Of a stretch of DNA of 24,814 nucleotides, positions 7,404 through 14,248 are shown in pieces. The DNA is from a virus. Position 1 is the first letter of the stretch. Every line of letters begins with the position of its first letter. The stretch covers positions 1 through 24,814 of the IMG/VR virus record IMGVR_UViG_3300030108_001226; one strand, 5' to 3'. A model generated the notes under the pieces. It saw nothing but the letters and a program-made list of their open reading frames with translations. It made no database searches and was not told the origin of the DNA. The translations under genes were made by a program, and so were the position numbers.

Positions 7404-8203
7404 CAACAGGATCAATTCAAATTTCAAACGAAAACTACCATGCTGATGATGCGATCTCAGCATCCATGAAAAAAGTAATGGTAAAGCATGGCCCTAAGGC
7501 ATACTGGAACTCTTTTCTTAATCCTGACAGGCCAGAACATAAACCGACAAGTGCAATGCTCTTGGGAACATTAACTCATTGTGCAGTTTTAGAGCCTGAT
7601 GAACTGACAAAAAGGTTTGTTGCAGTATCATCCAGGACAACCAAGAAAGGCAAAGAGGAGGCAAAAGAAGCTGAAGCAAAAGGTCTTACGGCTGTCACTG
7701 AAGCTGATATGGAAAATGCGATCAAGATGAGAGATGCTGTGTTTTCAGAACCTCATGCCAAGAAGTTACTTAGCTTTGGTATTGCAGAGAAATCATATTG
7801 GTGGGATGACAAGGCTACTGGTTTGACCTGTAAGTGCCGACCTGATTGGCTTAACAAAGATATTATTGTAGATCTTAAAACAAGTAGATCAGGAGCAAAC
7901 CCTAGAGACTTTGCAAAAGCAGTGGCAAATTTTACCTACCATTTGCAGGCGAAACATTATCTCAATGGCATTCCATCAGCAAAGAGATTTATCTTTCTTG
8001 TGGTGCAATCTGAATATCCATTTGATGTCGGGTTATGGGAGTTGGATGATGATGCCTTGAAAGAAGGCCAAAAATTGTCCAGGGAAGCTTTGGACAAGAT
8101 TGCCGAATGTCGCCTGCTTGATGATTGGCCAAGCTGGTGTCAAACAGGAGTTCAATCTTTATCCTTGCCCCGATGGGCATTTTCAACCCCTTTAGAAAAA
8201 TGA
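7400..8203 (+). CDS. RecE-like PD-(D/E)XK exonuclease
   Basis: A 267-residue nuclease of the exodeoxyribonuclease VIII/RecE-like PDDEXK family. Such enzymes resect double-strand ends to give 3' single strands for annealing. Visible: LGTLTHCAVLEP (55-66, with H60), CRPDW (146-150, catalytic D149), IVDLKTS (156-162, D158 and K160) and YHLQAKHY (180-187, the Q..Y helix). I chose ATG 7400 because it overlaps the preceding stop as ATGA and AGAGGT lies about 10 nt upstream; an in-frame ATG at 7346 would overlap the previous gene by 58 nt. It is coupled by another ATGA to the Rad52-like annealing protein, so the two form a two-component recombination system like RecE/RecT or Red alpha/beta. Confidence 0.87.
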   Translation: MTTGSIQISNENYHADDAISASMKKVMVKHGPKAYWNSFLNPDRPEHKPTSAMLLGTLTHCAVLEPDELTKRFVAVSSRTTKKGKEEAKEAEAKGLTAVTEADMENAIKMRDAVFSEPHAKKLLSFGIAEKSYWWDDKATGLTCKCRPDWLNKDIIVDLKTSRSGANPRDFAKAVANFTYHLQAKHYLNGIPSAKRFIFLVVQSEYPFDVGLWELDDDALKEGQKLSREALDKIAECRLLDDWPSWCQTGVQSLSLPRWAFSTPLEK

Positions 8204-10132: not shown

Positions 10133-10409
10133 TTCAAAAAAACTTAGAAAGTTGAAAGAAATCAGACGTAAAAACTTAGAAAGAAACCTACTAGATGTTC
10201 AGCTAAAAGGACAGGATCATTATGTGTTCATCAATGAAAGAAATAAGGCACAGGTTGTTAATAAAGATGGGGCATGGATTACTGAACACATCAAAACATC
10301 AATACTGAAGTTTAATTATGAAATTGATAAGATTGAAAAGATGTTGGTAAAAGATTTTACAAAAGAAGAACTTAAGGAATACGAAAAAAGCTTTTCAAAG
10401 GATTCTTAG
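10125..10409 (+). CDS. Hypothetical charged protein
   Basis: A 94-residue basic protein. A lysine/arginine-rich helix opens it (KKLRKLKEIRRKNLERN), a beta-like middle follows (DHYVFINERNKAQVVNKDGAW), and charged helices close it. I do not recognise it. Its 3' end overlaps the convergent gene at 10372 by 38 nt, so opposing transcripts meet here. Confidence 0.6.
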   Translation: MSDSKKLRKLKEIRRKNLERNLLDVQLKGQDHYVFINERNKAQVVNKDGAWITEHIKTSILKFNYEIDKIEKMLVKDFTKEELKEYEKSFSKDS

Positions 10410-10647
10410 GTTTTCTTTGCCTCATTTCTACTACAACACGATTTGCTTCTAGCTCTATAAGCCTGTTTAATATTGAGGCCATAAAAATATCCTGATCAAA
10501 CTTTTTTCTGACTAGGTGAGTGCAATATCTTTTTATATCAACCAAATCATCAGCTTTCATTATTTCCCTGCATTGCATTTCTATCTCCAGTTCCAATTCA
10601 GGAGGTGCTGGTTCTATATTTATGTTGAGAAATTTAGTTATTTTCAT
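10372..10647 (-). CDS. Hypothetical helical protein
   Basis: A 91-residue protein with an acidic, proline-containing N-terminal part (NIEPAPPELELEIEMQC), helices (LVDIKRYCTHLVRKKFDQDIFMASILNRLIELEANRVV) and a basic tail. No known motif is visible. Its ATG overlaps the stop of the gene at 10644-10838 as ATGA, so the two are translationally coupled on the minus strand. Confidence 0.65.
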   Translation of the reverse strand: MKITKFLNINIEPAPPELELEIEMQCREIMKADDLVDIKRYCTHLVRKKFDQDIFMASILNRLIELEANRVVVEMRQRKPKNPLKSFFRIP

Positions 10648-10838
10648 TTTACTGGAAATAATTTTTCTTCAATCATCTTGACGATGGCATCATCAACGTC
10701 ATTATCTGACTTGGCACTTAAGTCTTTTAAAAGTGACAAACAGGCTTTGCGTAGCGATTCACTCTTGCCGAACTTGATGAGCAGATTGATTAGAAACTTT
10801 GACATTGGTTTTTTTGTGTTACTTTCCAAACATACCAA
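10644..10838 (-). CDS. Hypothetical small protein with DNDVDD motif
   Basis: A 64-residue protein. From residue 12 it reads as amphipathic helices (MSKFLINLLIKFGKSESLRKACLSLLKDL) followed by SDNDVDDAIVKMIEEKL. I have seen similar helix-plus-TDNDVDD proteins in phage structural or lysis regions, but I cannot name a function. The start may be the ATG at 10805 rather than 10838; neither has a strong ribosome binding site. It is followed by a coupled partner gene (ATGA). Confidence 0.65.
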   Translation of the reverse strand: MVCLESNTKKPMSKFLINLLIKFGKSESLRKACLSLLKDLSAKSDNDVDDAIVKMIEEKLFPVK

Positions 10839-10916: not shown

Positions 10917-11159
10917 ATGGAAGAAGAAGAAAAAGAAAGTAAAGATTATTTCGGACACGCAATCCGATTTATTATTCTTTGCTGGGCTTTGTCAGTTATG
11001 ACTCTTGGATACATGGAAAGAATCAGGCTTGACACTTTTGCAGCAGGCCTCGTTGGGAATATCGCATCTTCTTATGGGATAGCTGTGAAGGGTAAAAATA
11101 ACAACACAAAAAAATCAGTTATAGTAGATAATAAGAACAACAAAGTTGGTATCAAATGA
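10917..11159 (+). CDS. Small membrane protein, holin-like in layout
   Basis: An 80-residue protein from ATG 10917; the frame is open 25 codons earlier, but that part has no protein character. An acidic N-terminus (MEEEEKESKD) is followed by a transmembrane helix at 15-32 (AIRFIILCWALSVMTLGY), a weaker hydrophobic segment at 41-57 (FAAGLVGNIASSYGIAV) and a basic tail. Two membrane segments with a charged tail fit a holin-like protein, but the neighbours are secreted-type proteins, not a lysin. It overlaps the next gene as ATGA. The 78-nt gap before it, between divergent genes, should hold a promoter, but I see no convincing boxes. Confidence 0.6.
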   Translation: MEEEEKESKDYFGHAIRFIILCWALSVMTLGYMERIRLDTFAAGLVGNIASSYGIAVKGKNNNTKKSVIVDNKNNKVGIK

Positions 11160-11683
11160 AAAGACTACTGCCTTTTATATTTCTTGTATCTGCGCCAGCT
11201 TATGCGGACATCAATCACTCAATCCAGAATGTTGTCTCGGTCAGTACATTAGGAGCAAGTTCAACAAGTAATCGGGTGGGTACGACCTTTTCTGCATCAG
11301 GTACAAACGTAACACCAAAAGCAAATACAGTAACAGATGCTATTGGAACTCTTGATCTTACTGACGCTGCAATAACTAATGGCGTTCCTACGATTGACTA
11401 TACAACTTCTTACTCAGTTACAAATAATGGGGATGCATGGTCTGTGTCAGAAAGCTATATTCAAGGAGATTCTATCCCTACAAGTTTTTTAGCCACAACG
11501 GTTACTAATGGTGTTGTACCAGCTTTACCAATATTTGGAGATACCACAACTGTGAGTGGTGGAGATATTGGCACTACAGCCATGACAATGGATTCTGGAG
11601 GTGCGATGACAGTTAACTTATCTGCTACAGGAGCAGGGGTTACAGCCCAGATGTCAAGCACTATAAAACTTGAAATTGATTGA
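11156..11683 (+). CDS. Secreted Ser/Thr-rich protein with signal peptide
   Basis: A 175-residue protein. Residues 1-18 form a clear signal peptide (MKRLLPFIFLVSAPAYA, then D), with AYA at the cleavage site. The mature part is rich in Ser, Thr, Gly and Val in alternating beta-like strands and lacks cysteines. NNGDAWSVSESYIQGDSIPTSF aligns with GEAFSITENFLAPGLDATST of the next gene, and RVGTTFSASGTNV aligns with RTGYSYSLQGNNI, so the two look like diverged tandem copies. The start overlaps the preceding stop (ATGA). I recall similar proteins in marine cyanophages but know no function. Surface or envelope location is inferred from the signal peptide. Confidence 0.75.
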   Translation: MKRLLPFIFLVSAPAYADINHSIQNVVSVSTLGASSTSNRVGTTFSASGTNVTPKANTVTDAIGTLDLTDAAITNGVPTIDYTTSYSVTNNGDAWSVSESYIQGDSIPTSFLATTVTNGVVPALPIFGDTTTVSGGDIGTTAMTMDSGGAMTVNLSATGAGVTAQMSSTIKLEID

Positions 11684-12111
11684 TGAAATGGCTGGTAATA
11701 TTTTTATTTGGCATACCTAGTGCTTATGCAGGGGGTATTACTCCATCGTTCTCTACAGGCCAGATGGAATCTTCAAGCTCCAGCAAGACCATTATTGTGG
11801 AGACCATTGTTACAGAAAACTACCGCACAGGTTACTCATACAGTTTGCAAGGAAATAATATACAAGTTAAAGAAGGAACAGTTATATCACCTGATGCAAC
11901 CTATACAAACACACAGACAGTTAATGGAGTTTCATTCAAATGGGTAACTCCAGATTTACCGACAAAACCTCAATGGGAGATCAAAGATGCAGGCGAAGCT
12001 TTCAGCATAACGGAGAATTTTCTTGCTCCAGGACTAGATGCAACAAGCACTATTCAGCGCACCATAAATACAGAAAGTCAAAGCACAAGCTTATCAATTT
12101 TTTCAAATTAA
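11683..12111 (+). CDS. Secreted protein, paralogue of the upstream gene
   Basis: A 142-residue protein from ATG 11683, which overlaps the preceding TGA by one base (TGATG). Signal peptide: MKWLVIFLFGIPSAYA, then GG. The mature part is a Ser/Thr-rich beta-type domain, 30 residues shorter than its upstream relative. It shares the order of motifs SxSGxNI-like (SLQGNNI), then a GEAFSITENF strand and a TSTIxxTI end. The two tandem genes have complete frames. Downstream, the next frame begins to look like protein only at the end of this gene. Confidence 0.75.
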   Translation: MKWLVIFLFGIPSAYAGGITPSFSTGQMESSSSSKTIIVETIVTENYRTGYSYSLQGNNIQVKEGTVISPDATYTNTQTVNGVSFKWVTPDLPTKPQWEIKDAGEAFSITENFLAPGLDATSTIQRTINTESQSTSLSIFSN

Positions 12112-12716
12112 GTTTACTTCTATTATTATATTCGCCGAAAACCATTGCAAATACTGTTAGTTCCCCATCAGCATCAAGTTCTGGTACGGTGATCAATAAC
12201 GGCTATCAAACTATAAATGGAGGCTTCCCAACGATGACTTATGGAGGAAATATTCAGTGCCAGCAACCGACATTAGCCTTTACACCATTTGTAACCAAAG
12301 GGGAAAACTACAGTACACCTAGAATTACCACAACTAAAACTAATATTTATGATCTTGCAGAGGATGCTTCGGGTAATTTAGTAAATCCAGGCAAAATTTT
12401 ATATCAAAGTGAACAGCCAAGGATAGATCAATCAACTCATAATTTTAATTATGGTTTCACCATCAGCTTGCAGATACCATTGGGAGAGGGATCTGATCTT
12501 TGCGTCAAGGCTGCTGAAAACCAGATAAAAGGACAGGAATTTGCATTACAGAAGGCACGTTTAGAGGCCAATCTGGCAAGGATGAAGGTATGTGCGGAGC
12601 AGTTTAAGCTTGGTGTAAAGCTGATAAATGAAGATGCGGTAGCGTGTAAAAACGTAGTATTAACAACAATTCCCAATCAGGTATTACCGCATACTCACGA
12701 GATAAAAACTAAGTAG
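12093..12716 (+). CDS. Secreted protein of cyanophage type; start uncertain
   Basis: About 207 residues. A signal-peptide-like segment (NFFKLSLLLLLYSPKTIA, then NT) leads to VSSPSASSSGTVINNG, a Gly/Thr-rich middle with a TYGGNIQCQ motif, and a helical, coiled-coil-prone end (AAENQIKGQEFALQKARLEANLARMKVCAEQ). I remember NTVSSPSASSSG...TYGGxIQCQG proteins from marine cyanophages; their function is unknown. The start is a problem: no ATG, GTG or TTG lies at the signal peptide. I give ATC 12093 as the nearest possible non-standard start. ATGs at 11940 and 11973 would add about 40-50 residues that are plainly the out-of-frame reading of the previous gene. Sequence error or start-codon decay is also possible. 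Confidence 0.6.
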   Translation: MNFFKLSLLLLLYSPKTIANTVSSPSASSSGTVINNGYQTINGGFPTMTYGGNIQCQQPTLAFTPFVTKGENYSTPRITTTKTNIYDLAEDASGNLVNPGKILYQSEQPRIDQSTHNFNYGFTISLQIPLGEGSDLCVKAAENQIKGQEFALQKARLEANLARMKVCAEQFKLGVKLINEDAVACKNVVLTTIPNQVLPHTHEIKTK

Positions 12717-12720
12717 ATTT

Positions 12721-13344
12721 TTATTTTTTCTTTGTCAGTTGTTTTTTTATCTTTTTAAATATTTCAGAAATCACCTTTTTTATTACAGGAGCCAAAAGCG
12801 CAGACCCACCAGCAACCACACCGATAACAGCAGTAGAAATGAGTGCTTGAGGTGTACCAGTAAAGCTCTCTCTGAATGGTACTTTTTCCCAGACTCCGAC
12901 ACAAGTAATACCATCTGAAGGGGATCTTTCCCATTTTACCAATCTTTCAATTCTAAGATCATTTCTGTAATCTCCAGGTCTAAATTGTGGGTTTTTAGGT
13001 GGGCAAGGTTCATATACTACTTTCTTATCTTTCTTAGGTTTTGGTTGTGCTAAGTTTGTATCTTTTTGAGTTGGCGCAGTATTAACAGGGACAGGTTCTG
13101 TATCTATTATTTGTGCAGGGTCATATCTCATCGGAGTATATGATGGGATTTCACCGTTTGGACATACAGTATATGTGCCACGTTTATCTGATATTAGTAA
13201 TGATGGATTGCGTGTAATTTCTAGGTCACGATGATATAAATAACAGCCAGGCAACTTGCCTTCTAGTTTTGGTTTTGTAAAATATGGAGCATCAGGAATA
13301 TCTATTGTTGGTAGTTTTATCTCAGGTATCTTTATTTCACTCAT
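12721..13344 (-). CDS. Hypothetical protein with C-terminal membrane segment
   Basis: A 207-residue protein. The N-terminus is a repeated I-P pattern (SEIKIPEIKLPTIDIPDAP), followed by GCYLYHRDLEI, GTYTVCPNG and a proline/lysine-rich linker (QPKPKKDKKVVYEPCPP). A membrane helix lies at about 172-190 (STAVIGVVAGGSALLAPVI), before a lysine-rich tail of about 20 residues. It resembles membrane-tethered proteins near the fibre genes of marine phages, as far as I recall. It is the last of three overlapping minus-strand genes, and its stop lies 4 nt from the stop of the convergent secreted protein. The function is unknown. Confidence 0.72.
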   Translation of the reverse strand: MSEIKIPEIKLPTIDIPDAPYFTKPKLEGKLPGCYLYHRDLEITRNPSLLISDKRGTYTVCPNGEIPSYTPMRYDPAQIIDTEPVPVNTAPTQKDTNLAQPKPKKDKKVVYEPCPPKNPQFRPGDYRNDLRIERLVKWERSPSDGITCVGVWEKVPFRESFTGTPQALISTAVIGVVAGGSALLAPVIKKVISEIFKKIKKQLTKKK

Positions 13345-13555
13345 CTTTATCTACATCACCTATAGAAATAGACCAACCATCTTCTCCAAACTTACCTTTT
13401 TCAACAATTCTAGGTTTTGTCATTTTTGCATCCATATCATTATGATATTTTTTTATCTCATCATCTAATTCAAGTTGTAGTTTTTTTATTCTTATCCAGG
13501 ACACAAGTTTATCAATATAATATTTTATTAATTTTTTAAAAAATCCAAAGATCAT
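13337..13555 (-). CDS. Small amphipathic/charged protein
   Basis: A 72-residue protein with an N-terminal basic amphipathic or membrane-touching segment (MIFGFFKKLIKYYIDKLVSWI), a charged coiled-coil-like stretch (KKLQLELDDEIKKYHNDMD), and a C-terminal GEDGWSISIGDVDKDE. It overlaps the next gene by 8 nt and the previous one by 4 nt, so the three are probably translated together. No family is recognised. Confidence 0.65.
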   Translation of the reverse strand: MIFGFFKKLIKYYIDKLVSWIRIKKLQLELDDEIKKYHNDMDAKMTKPRIVEKGKFGEDGWSISIGDVDKDE

Positions 13556-13770
13556 TTGATGATTGGCATTGAAGGCCCTGTTACTTTTGGTAATTCCTGA
13601 TCTAATACTTTTGGCATCATTCCAGACACGTTATCAAGCACCTCATTCATTACTCTAGCCTTGAACTGCTCAGAGGTTACAAATCTGAAGGCGTAATACG
13701 AACCGCCCAACATTGACAAGGTAAGGAATAGAGACAACAATGAAGCTATCTGACAAATCTTTTGAAACAT
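13552..13770 (-). CDS. Small single-pass membrane protein
   Basis: A 72-residue protein with one N-terminal membrane helix (about 6-28, QIASLLSLFLTLSMLGGSYYAF) and an external or internal tail ending in KVLDQELPKVTGPSMPII. Proteins of this shape recur near tail and lysis genes of marine phages in my memory, without known function. It overlaps the next gene as ATGA. Its ATG lies one base from the ATG of an opposing small ORF. Confidence 0.65.
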   Translation of the reverse strand: MFQKICQIASLLSLFLTLSMLGGSYYAFRFVTSEQFKARVMNEVLDNVSGMMPKVLDQELPKVTGPSMPIIK

Positions 13771-13909: not shown

Positions 13910-14248
13910 TTACCAAGGTACACCCGAAGTCTTAGTAGGTGTTTTTGATTCTGTTATCTGTGCAGCAATACTTGTTTCAATGGATGTCACTTCATCAGAA
14001 CCTATTGCAGCTTTAGCCCATGCGATAGCATTTGCTTTTGTTATATCTGCATAAGCAGTAAAAGATCCAGAATCAGCTTCTGCAAGTCCTACAGAGCCAT
14101 AAGCAGAACCGCTATGAACTACAGCAGAATCGCCAGTGCCAACAGTTTCAGAGTCACTAGCAGTCCAGTGAACAGTTGTAACAACATCAGATAAAGAACC
14201 TACAGTTTTTGTTGCATCTAAAGAAACAACATCCCAGGTAACAGCCAT
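13910..14248 (-). CDS. Conserved phage hypothetical protein (DUF7936-like)
   Basis: A 112-residue protein beginning MAVTWDVVSLDATK, followed by a beta-type middle (TTVHWTASDSETVGTGDSAVVHSG), then a helix ANAIAWAKAAIGSDEVTSIETSIAAQI, and ending KTPTKTSGVPW. I recognise this pattern from small proteins next to the fibre genes of marine cyanophages, annotated only as a domain of unknown function. Its place after the fibre gene suggests a virion-associated or fibre-accessory role; that is inference. Confidence 0.75.
   Translation of the reverse strand: MAVTWDVVSLDATKTVGSLSDVVTTVHWTASDSETVGTGDSAVVHSGSAYGSVGLAEADSGSFTAYADITKANAIAWAKAAIGSDEVTSIETSIAAQITESKTPTKTSGVPW

Follow-up and report, generated by a model that had tools for sequence, protein, structure and literature searches.

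A Conserved, Putatively Envelope-Directed Gene Module Common to Marine Picocyanobacterial Myo-, Sipho- and Podoviruses

Gene Content of the Locus

The window, that is, the whole stretch of DNA analyzed here, is a 24,814-base virus record of a lambda-like siphovirus. It carries terminase, helicase/primase and recombination genes as well as tail J-like and tape-measure genes, and the Prochlorococcus phages MED4-117 and P-HS2/MED4-184 are distant relatives. Positions 10917–12716 contain four consecutive ORFs on the plus strand (genes 1–4), the fourth being open to 12716; genes 1 and 2 share 4 nt (ATGA), and genes 2 and 3 share 1 nt (TGATG). The four-gene block described in an earlier, sequence-only reading of this DNA is thus present. 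The same reading placed the block on the strand opposite to its flanking genes. This holds downstream, where the tail genes from 12721 on are on the minus strand, but not upstream, where just two small minus-strand genes (10372–10647 and 10644–10838) are followed by further plus-strand genes.

Gene 1 (10917–11159, plus strand) was characterized by profile matches and hydropathy. It encodes a putative holin-like protein of the DUF6450 family with two hydrophobic segments and a basic C-terminus, in agreement with the earlier claim that a two-segment membrane protein comes first in the block. By hydropathy, the two segments recur in the gene 1 family (nine homologues, with KBS-P-1A and S-RSM4 less clear). 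The window protein scores 18.9 bits against DUF6450, under the 25-bit cut-off. No match to known holin families was found, the only significant matches being to uncharacterized families, phrog_21865, phrog_721, phrog_2714 and DUF6450; the last of these connects gene 1 to T4-GC 218. Phage S-TIM5 retains both gene 1 (DUF6450) and gene 4 without their being adjacent, the former at about 11.7 kb and the latter at about 154.7 kb.

Genes 2 (11156–11683) and 3 (11683–12111), both on the plus strand, are paralogues with predicted exported products. Gene 2 was assigned to phrog_564 (T4-GC 237) as an ORF with a PHROG match and a signal peptide, and gene 3, by ORF and profiles, to phrog_650/DUF6322 (T4-GC 236); the gene 3 product is beta-rich and carries a C-terminal S[IV]F-x-[QN] motif. 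Signal peptides were scored by a simple home-made rule, with predicted cleavage between AYA and DIN in gene 2 and between AYA and GGI in gene 3. Three of the 30 window genes passed this rule, namely genes 2 and 3 and the gene at 13552–13770, although the segment of the latter more closely resembles an N-terminal membrane anchor. In the non-redundant sets of homologues, the rule was satisfied by 52/52 gene 2 and 69/84 gene 3 products. The C-terminus of gene 3 products is near-invariant, S[IV]F-[STG]-[QNH] (12094–12108 in the window), and a looser form of the motif occurs in 367 of 373 gene 3 family ORFs versus 0 of 10,692 other ORFs. A striking likeness to T7 gp18.7, which also ends in VFSQ, was taken as chance, as four gp18.7 relatives lack it.

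Of the 15 non-redundant myovirus-like loci, 6 have a late-promoter-like sequence, [AC]TAAATA, ahead of gene 2 (−32 to −36), against a background of 0.008 per 60 nt. A late promoter of the T4 type was rejected, as NATAAATA was found upstream in only 3 of 40 myovirus-like and 0 of 145 siphovirus-like loci.

Several further genes accompany the block, all of them on the minus strand in the window. The one at 10644–10838 matches phrog_2738 (E 3.8e-11), an uncharacterized family; among loci with full flanks, it adjoins the block in 36 of the 40 that are siphovirus-like and in 29 of the 29 that are podovirus-like. Separate in the window, it is fused to the C-terminus of gene 4 in podovirus P-GSP1 (7550–7717), which suggests that the two products work together. 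Gene 5 (12721–13344; phrog_570, T4-GC 234) has a product that is rich in proline and carries a single, C-terminal hydrophobic segment and a basic tail. Its podovirus counterpart belongs to another PHROG (phrog_9426), and 35 ORFs were matched by both home-built profiles. It is followed by a small gene with a weak match to the T4-GC 219 family (13337–13555), by the gene for a small protein with an N-terminal hydrophobic anchor (13552–13770; phrog_568, "plasmid stability," T4-GC 414), and by a gene for a DUF7936 protein (13910–14248; phrog_7802), which adjoins the block in some podoviruses too.

Overlap of Genes 3 and 4

Gene 4 (phrog_848/1755, T4-GC 235; plus strand) codes for a product with four invariant cysteines and a PHxH motif. 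Its signal-like segment, LINFFKLSLLLLLYSPKTIA (12090–12149), is hydrophobic, ends in TIA and is followed by NTV. Neither in the window nor in most other loci of the initial set does an ATG, GTG or TTG stand beside this segment. The nearest in-frame starts in the window are ATG codons at 11940 and 11973, both within gene 3, so that gene 4 would occupy 11940–12716, and its first part (11940–12111) would overlap the last part of gene 3 in a stop-free −1 frame. Since the frame is open into gene 3 and an overlap of 140–190 nt is conserved in homologues, translation of gene 4 probably begins at a gene 3-internal ATG. Thus, out of the three signal peptides originally claimed, those of genes 2 and 3 stand by our rule, while gene 4 has only a signal-like segment lacking an adjacent start codon; the sequence-only reading had overlooked both the gene 4 start and the larger module described below.

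Genes 3 and 4 are both present in 212 of 218 loci, and gene 4 is in the −1 frame relative to gene 3 in 211 of these 212 (one being the window's own copy). The sole exception is P-HS2 (7938–8001), likely due to a 1-nt indel or a sequencing error in the overlap; MED4-117, a close relative, keeps the −1 frame. We counted frame openness in 206 of the 212 loci, equivalent to 141 non-redundant ones, leaving out P-HS2 with its other frame, the window copy, one locus with gene 4 cut by the contig end, and three in which the overlap contains a stop. With these three set aside, the −1 frame was open in 141/141 non-redundant loci. Over the last 46 codons of gene 3, it was open in 58/58, 56/56, and 27/27 loci of three groups, whereas the openness expected from synonymous shuffles was 0.038, 0.015, and 0.117, respectively. 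Codons that would create a stop if ending in T never do so in the overlap (0 of 991), compared to 655 of 1307 upstream.

Candidate starts of gene 4 are an ATG ∼166–178 nt and/or an ATG or GTG (rarely TTG) 136–145 nt upstream of the stop codon of gene 3. Both are created by a conserved tryptophan codon preceded by a codon with A or G in third position, so that the fact that they are conserved has little weight in itself; it is the lack of stops that constitutes the evidence for the gene 4 extension.

In NATL-type podoviruses, the open gene 4 frame spans nearly the whole of gene 3. It was open in 52/52 non-redundant loci for the last 40 codons and in 50/50 for the preceding block, and T was the last base of 0/442 and 0/197 at-risk codons, respectively. 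In the MPP-C group, gene 4 is in the other frame with a short overlap (74/74 loci) and has, in place of the signal-like segment, a regular ATG start with a signal peptide, e.g., MTRSTLLALSLLCLSLVSNKARA followed by EG, a pattern found in 57 of 81 loci.

The extension preceding the signal segment always has a positive net charge, with a median of +6 to +8. We rejected amino-acid constraint in the overlap: measured at residues with four or more codons, in up to 600 random pairs per group, synonymous variation was not clearly reduced (0.58 versus 0.50, 0.47 versus 0.43, and 0.43 versus 0.51), and synonymous sites are roughly as variable as those upstream. This leaves openness and net positive charge as the features kept in the extension, which apparently must be translatable and basic, its sequence not being fixed. 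Two other ways to express gene 4 were considered. A programmed −1 frameshift yielding a gene 3–gene 4 fusion is not favored: the open gene 4 frame extends up to an ATG that in many cases has a stop right upstream, and inspection by eye revealed no conserved slippery site. Initiation at a non-AUG codon next to the signal segment was rejected, there being no conserved codon at this place in the loci displayed.

Distribution of the Module

A tblastn search for gene 4 relatives yielded 424 phage records with the window query and 460 with the Syn19 query, nearly all of them marine cyanophages by name. The sequence-only reading proposed to look for the block in cyanophages and host genomes; its recurrence in hundreds of phage records is beyond chance. 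Module genes are present in T4-like, TIM5-like, siphovirus and T7-like cyanophages, and sequence comparison places the block in a larger module common to marine picocyanobacterial myo-, sipho- and podoviruses. To describe its composition, we considered 90 loci with full flanks (22 + 18 siphovirus-like, 21 myovirus-like and 14 + 15 podovirus-like), which were fetched by gene 4 similarity and not de-duplicated; the profiles were built and iterated in this analysis. Near gene 4, gene 3 was found in 90/90 of these loci, gene 5 or its podovirus counterpart in 90/90, and gene 1 in 89/90. Gene 2 was found in all 61 sipho- and myovirus-like loci and in none of the 29 podovirus-like ones.

In 20 whole phage records, genes 1 and 4 were both present in 14, and neither gave a match over the threshold in the other six (S-CREM2, S-SZBM1, Syn5, PSS2, S-PM2, and P60; in S-CREM2, the gene 1 match was sub-threshold). 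Estuarine S-CREM2 has no gene 3 or gene 4 match, and its annotated genes include a C39 peptidase and two lysozymes (35440–37316); it possibly lyses its host by another route.

With regard to a possible host origin, a scan of genomes revealed eight loci in SAG, MAG or isolate contigs, any of which may be viral. One is a 188 kb contig filed under the flavobacterial isolate Nonlabens xiamenensis 1Q3, which holds a T4-like cyanophage block; the size of the contig suggests that it is a cyanophage genome within that assembly.

Part of the module has been described before. T4-GCs 218, 219, 234, 235, and 237, together with a "plasmid stability" gene, were reported in all T4-like cyanophages except S-PM2, and, in the available part of that paper, the cluster is regarded as functionally linked, with unknown role (Sullivan 2010, PMC3037559). 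In the records of Syn19 and S-SM1, notes assign genes 2, 3, 4, and 5 to GC 237, 236, 235, and 234, and the PHROG and home-built profile matches and the conserved order place the module in the T4-GC 218/234–237 cluster.

Structure Models

The AlphaFold2 model of the mature gene 4 product, built on 61 sequences (pLDDT 65, pTM 0.33), combines two long strands with a helix of 38 residues, and that of the gene 3 product has strands of 22–23 residues at both ends (41 sequences, pLDDT 73, pTM 0.37). A fold search of the PDB with these models gave nothing with E < 0.001, all neighbors having Z < 5; the best, non-significant ones were beta-pore stems, flagellar rings, and phage collar proteins. In a profile search for solved relatives, no PDB chain fell below E 0.06, and a search of BFVD yielded no informative match apart from the gene 4 family. 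The weak models are compatible with oligomeric beta-hairpin assemblies, short of showing them. A TolC-like gene 4 product, suggested by a strand-helix pattern, was rejected, with no Pfam match up to E 1 and no TolC among the PDB matches shown.

Possible Function

The signal peptides conserved across distant phages, the four invariant cysteines of gene 4 and the membrane partner make export of the products to the envelope well supported as a prediction. The module is real, conserved and, by these predictions, envelope-directed, and it is known in part as an unnamed cluster. The sequence-only reading suggested an action on the host envelope, in lysis or superinfection exclusion; its export part is well founded, and of the two guesses, lysis is the better, though putative, one, since the genes overlap, lie where T7 has its lysis genes, and occur in phages listed as spanin-less.

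In T7-like cyanophages, the module is located between the tail fiber and terminase genes. In P-GSP1, NATL1A-7, and NATL2A-133 it lies downstream of large tail-region genes, and in P-GSP1 and NATL1A-7 it is followed by a terminase gene; the same stretch in T7 contains the tail fiber, the two-segment holin, terS, the overlapping spanins 18.5/18.7, and terL. The list of spanin-less phages in the available part of Kongari 2018 (PMC6139136) includes 20 Prochlorococcus and Synechococcus phages, and that text suggests that spanins might be replaced by an inner-membrane protein of type I or by a protein of the outer membrane. Gene 5 and genes 3/4 are candidates for these two roles. In phage P-SCSP1u, no holin, endolysin or spanin family was found in 20 of 38 proteins (the small or unassigned ones) and three cassette proteins. 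Further points in favor are the conservation across morphotypes, the joint occurrence of genes 1 and 4, the signal peptides, the invariant cysteines and PHxH of gene 4, and the late-promoter-like motif in some myovirus-like loci. On these grounds, we consider the chances evenly balanced that this is an envelope-disruption (lysis) module comprised of a holin-like gene 1 and a non-lipoprotein analogue of spanins. Counting against lysis, the block in T4-like phages is near phosphate and replication genes, outside any recognized lysis cluster. Also against it are the lack of matches to known holin or spanin families, the missing lipobox and the weakness of the structure models. Moreover, the absence of the module from Syn5, PSS2, S-PM2, P60, S-CREM2, and S-SZBM1 means that it is not needed to lyse all such hosts, and module-less Syn5, P60, S-PM2, and PSS2 are also on the available list of Kongari 2018. 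In the open literature on cyanophage holins and spanins, lysis cassettes, and signal peptides, the accessible text gives no lysis role to these genes; they are not discussed in the available parts of PMC10575957, PMC9860041, PMC2984593, PMC10665884, PMC9602691, PMC13002823, PMC9146016 (tables included), and PMC9964418.

Other functions would fit parts of the same evidence. Exported beta-proteins could coat or plug the outer membrane and block adsorption or injection by a second phage. Such superinfection exclusion or receptor masking, which we consider unlikely, agrees with small exported proteins having a membrane partner and with a gene set that varies with the phage type, gene 2 being restricted to sipho- and myovirus-like loci; still, conservation across myo-, sipho-, and podoviruses favors a common late step, as do the late-promoter-like motifs in some loci and a podovirus position corresponding to the T7 lysis genes. 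The long beta-hairpins of the models, whose weak PDB neighbors are largely beta-barrel pores and rings, could instead form an outer-membrane pore or remodel the surface for nutrient uptake or metabolite export in a long infection. The neighboring hsp20, pstS, and phoA in S-SM1, and hsp20 and pstS in Syn19, are in line with this function, but podovirus and siphovirus records keep the block without such annotated neighbors and no porin or TolC family match was found, making it very improbable.

We assign the lowest probability to a role in the virion or entry apparatus, with the proteins built into or beside the tail. The block does adjoin tail genes in the window and in podoviruses, and the weak fold neighbors include phage collar and upper-tail proteins. 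However, Sec signal peptides are at odds with such a role, profiles retrieved no PDB chain below E 0.06, and the S-SM1 and S-TIM5 records label other genes, but not these, as structural. Nor, by the indirect evidence of record labels, did the homologues prove to be known virion proteins: in S-SM1, the virion-detected GC 969 is named "virion structural protein," and the cassette genes stay "hypothetical." S-CREM2 and S-SZBM1, for which virion tables are published, had no match to the gene 3 or gene 4 profiles.

In the favored reading, the block is the core of a module with which marine picocyanobacterial phages would act on their host's envelope at a late stage, in all likelihood to breach it for lysis. 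Gene 4 would be translated from within gene 3, and the gene 1 product would be a holin-like protein of the inner membrane. The products of genes 3 and 4 and, where present, 2 would be exported via Sec, with disulfides formed in that of gene 4, and could assemble at the outer membrane through long beta-hairpins. The gene 5 product would be anchored in the inner membrane and extend its proline-rich part into the periplasm, linking to the outer-membrane assemblies, and joint action would disrupt the outer membrane without the lipoprotein that defines known spanins. In its most specific form, this would be a lipoprotein-free outer-membrane-disrupting machine of picocyanophages, in which overlapping-gene beta-hairpin proteins are driven by a type I, proline-rich protein of the inner membrane and a two-segment holin, and which has spread through myo-, sipho-, and podoviruses as it suits this host envelope; we regard this version as rather doubtful. 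The module offers concrete candidate genes, with fitting compartments and gene architecture, in many phages from the spanin-less list. It also provides a clear example of an envelope module common to three virion types, in viruses whose hosts are the ocean's most abundant photosynthetic bacteria.

Comparison With Known Systems

The T4-GC cluster (PMC3037559) has the same genes in the same order as the window module. Unlike here, the available description covers T4-like myoviruses only, with no podovirus or siphovirus copies, and the export signals, the overlap and the proposed function are absent from it.

Similar to T7 gp17.5, a type II holin, gene 1 is small, has two hydrophobic segments and a mostly basic C-terminus, and in podoviruses occupies the same map interval; unlike it, gene 1 has no sequence match to a holin family, its Pfam family being DUF6450.

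With two-component spanins, such as lambda Rz/Rz1 and T7 gp18.5/18.7, the cassette shares exported proteins encoded by overlapping genes in a shifted frame, as well as the T7-like position. Spanin genes form overlapping, embedded or adjacent pairs, as genes 3 and 4 do (−1 frame), and T7 18.7 has a basic leader before its signal segment, as does gene 4. On the other hand, genes 2–4 gave no match to known spanin families among PHROG and Pfam profiles, and no lipobox follows their signal sequences in the window and the listed homologues, by eye and by rule, so that the defining feature of o-spanins is missing. The membrane segment of gene 5 is C-terminal and not N-terminal as in the type II inner-membrane spanin subunit; the phrog_568 protein does have an N-terminal one, but it is missing from podovirus-like blocks. 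Finally, the cassette products are beta-rich, in contrast to the coiled-coil spanins, to which no sequence similarity was found.
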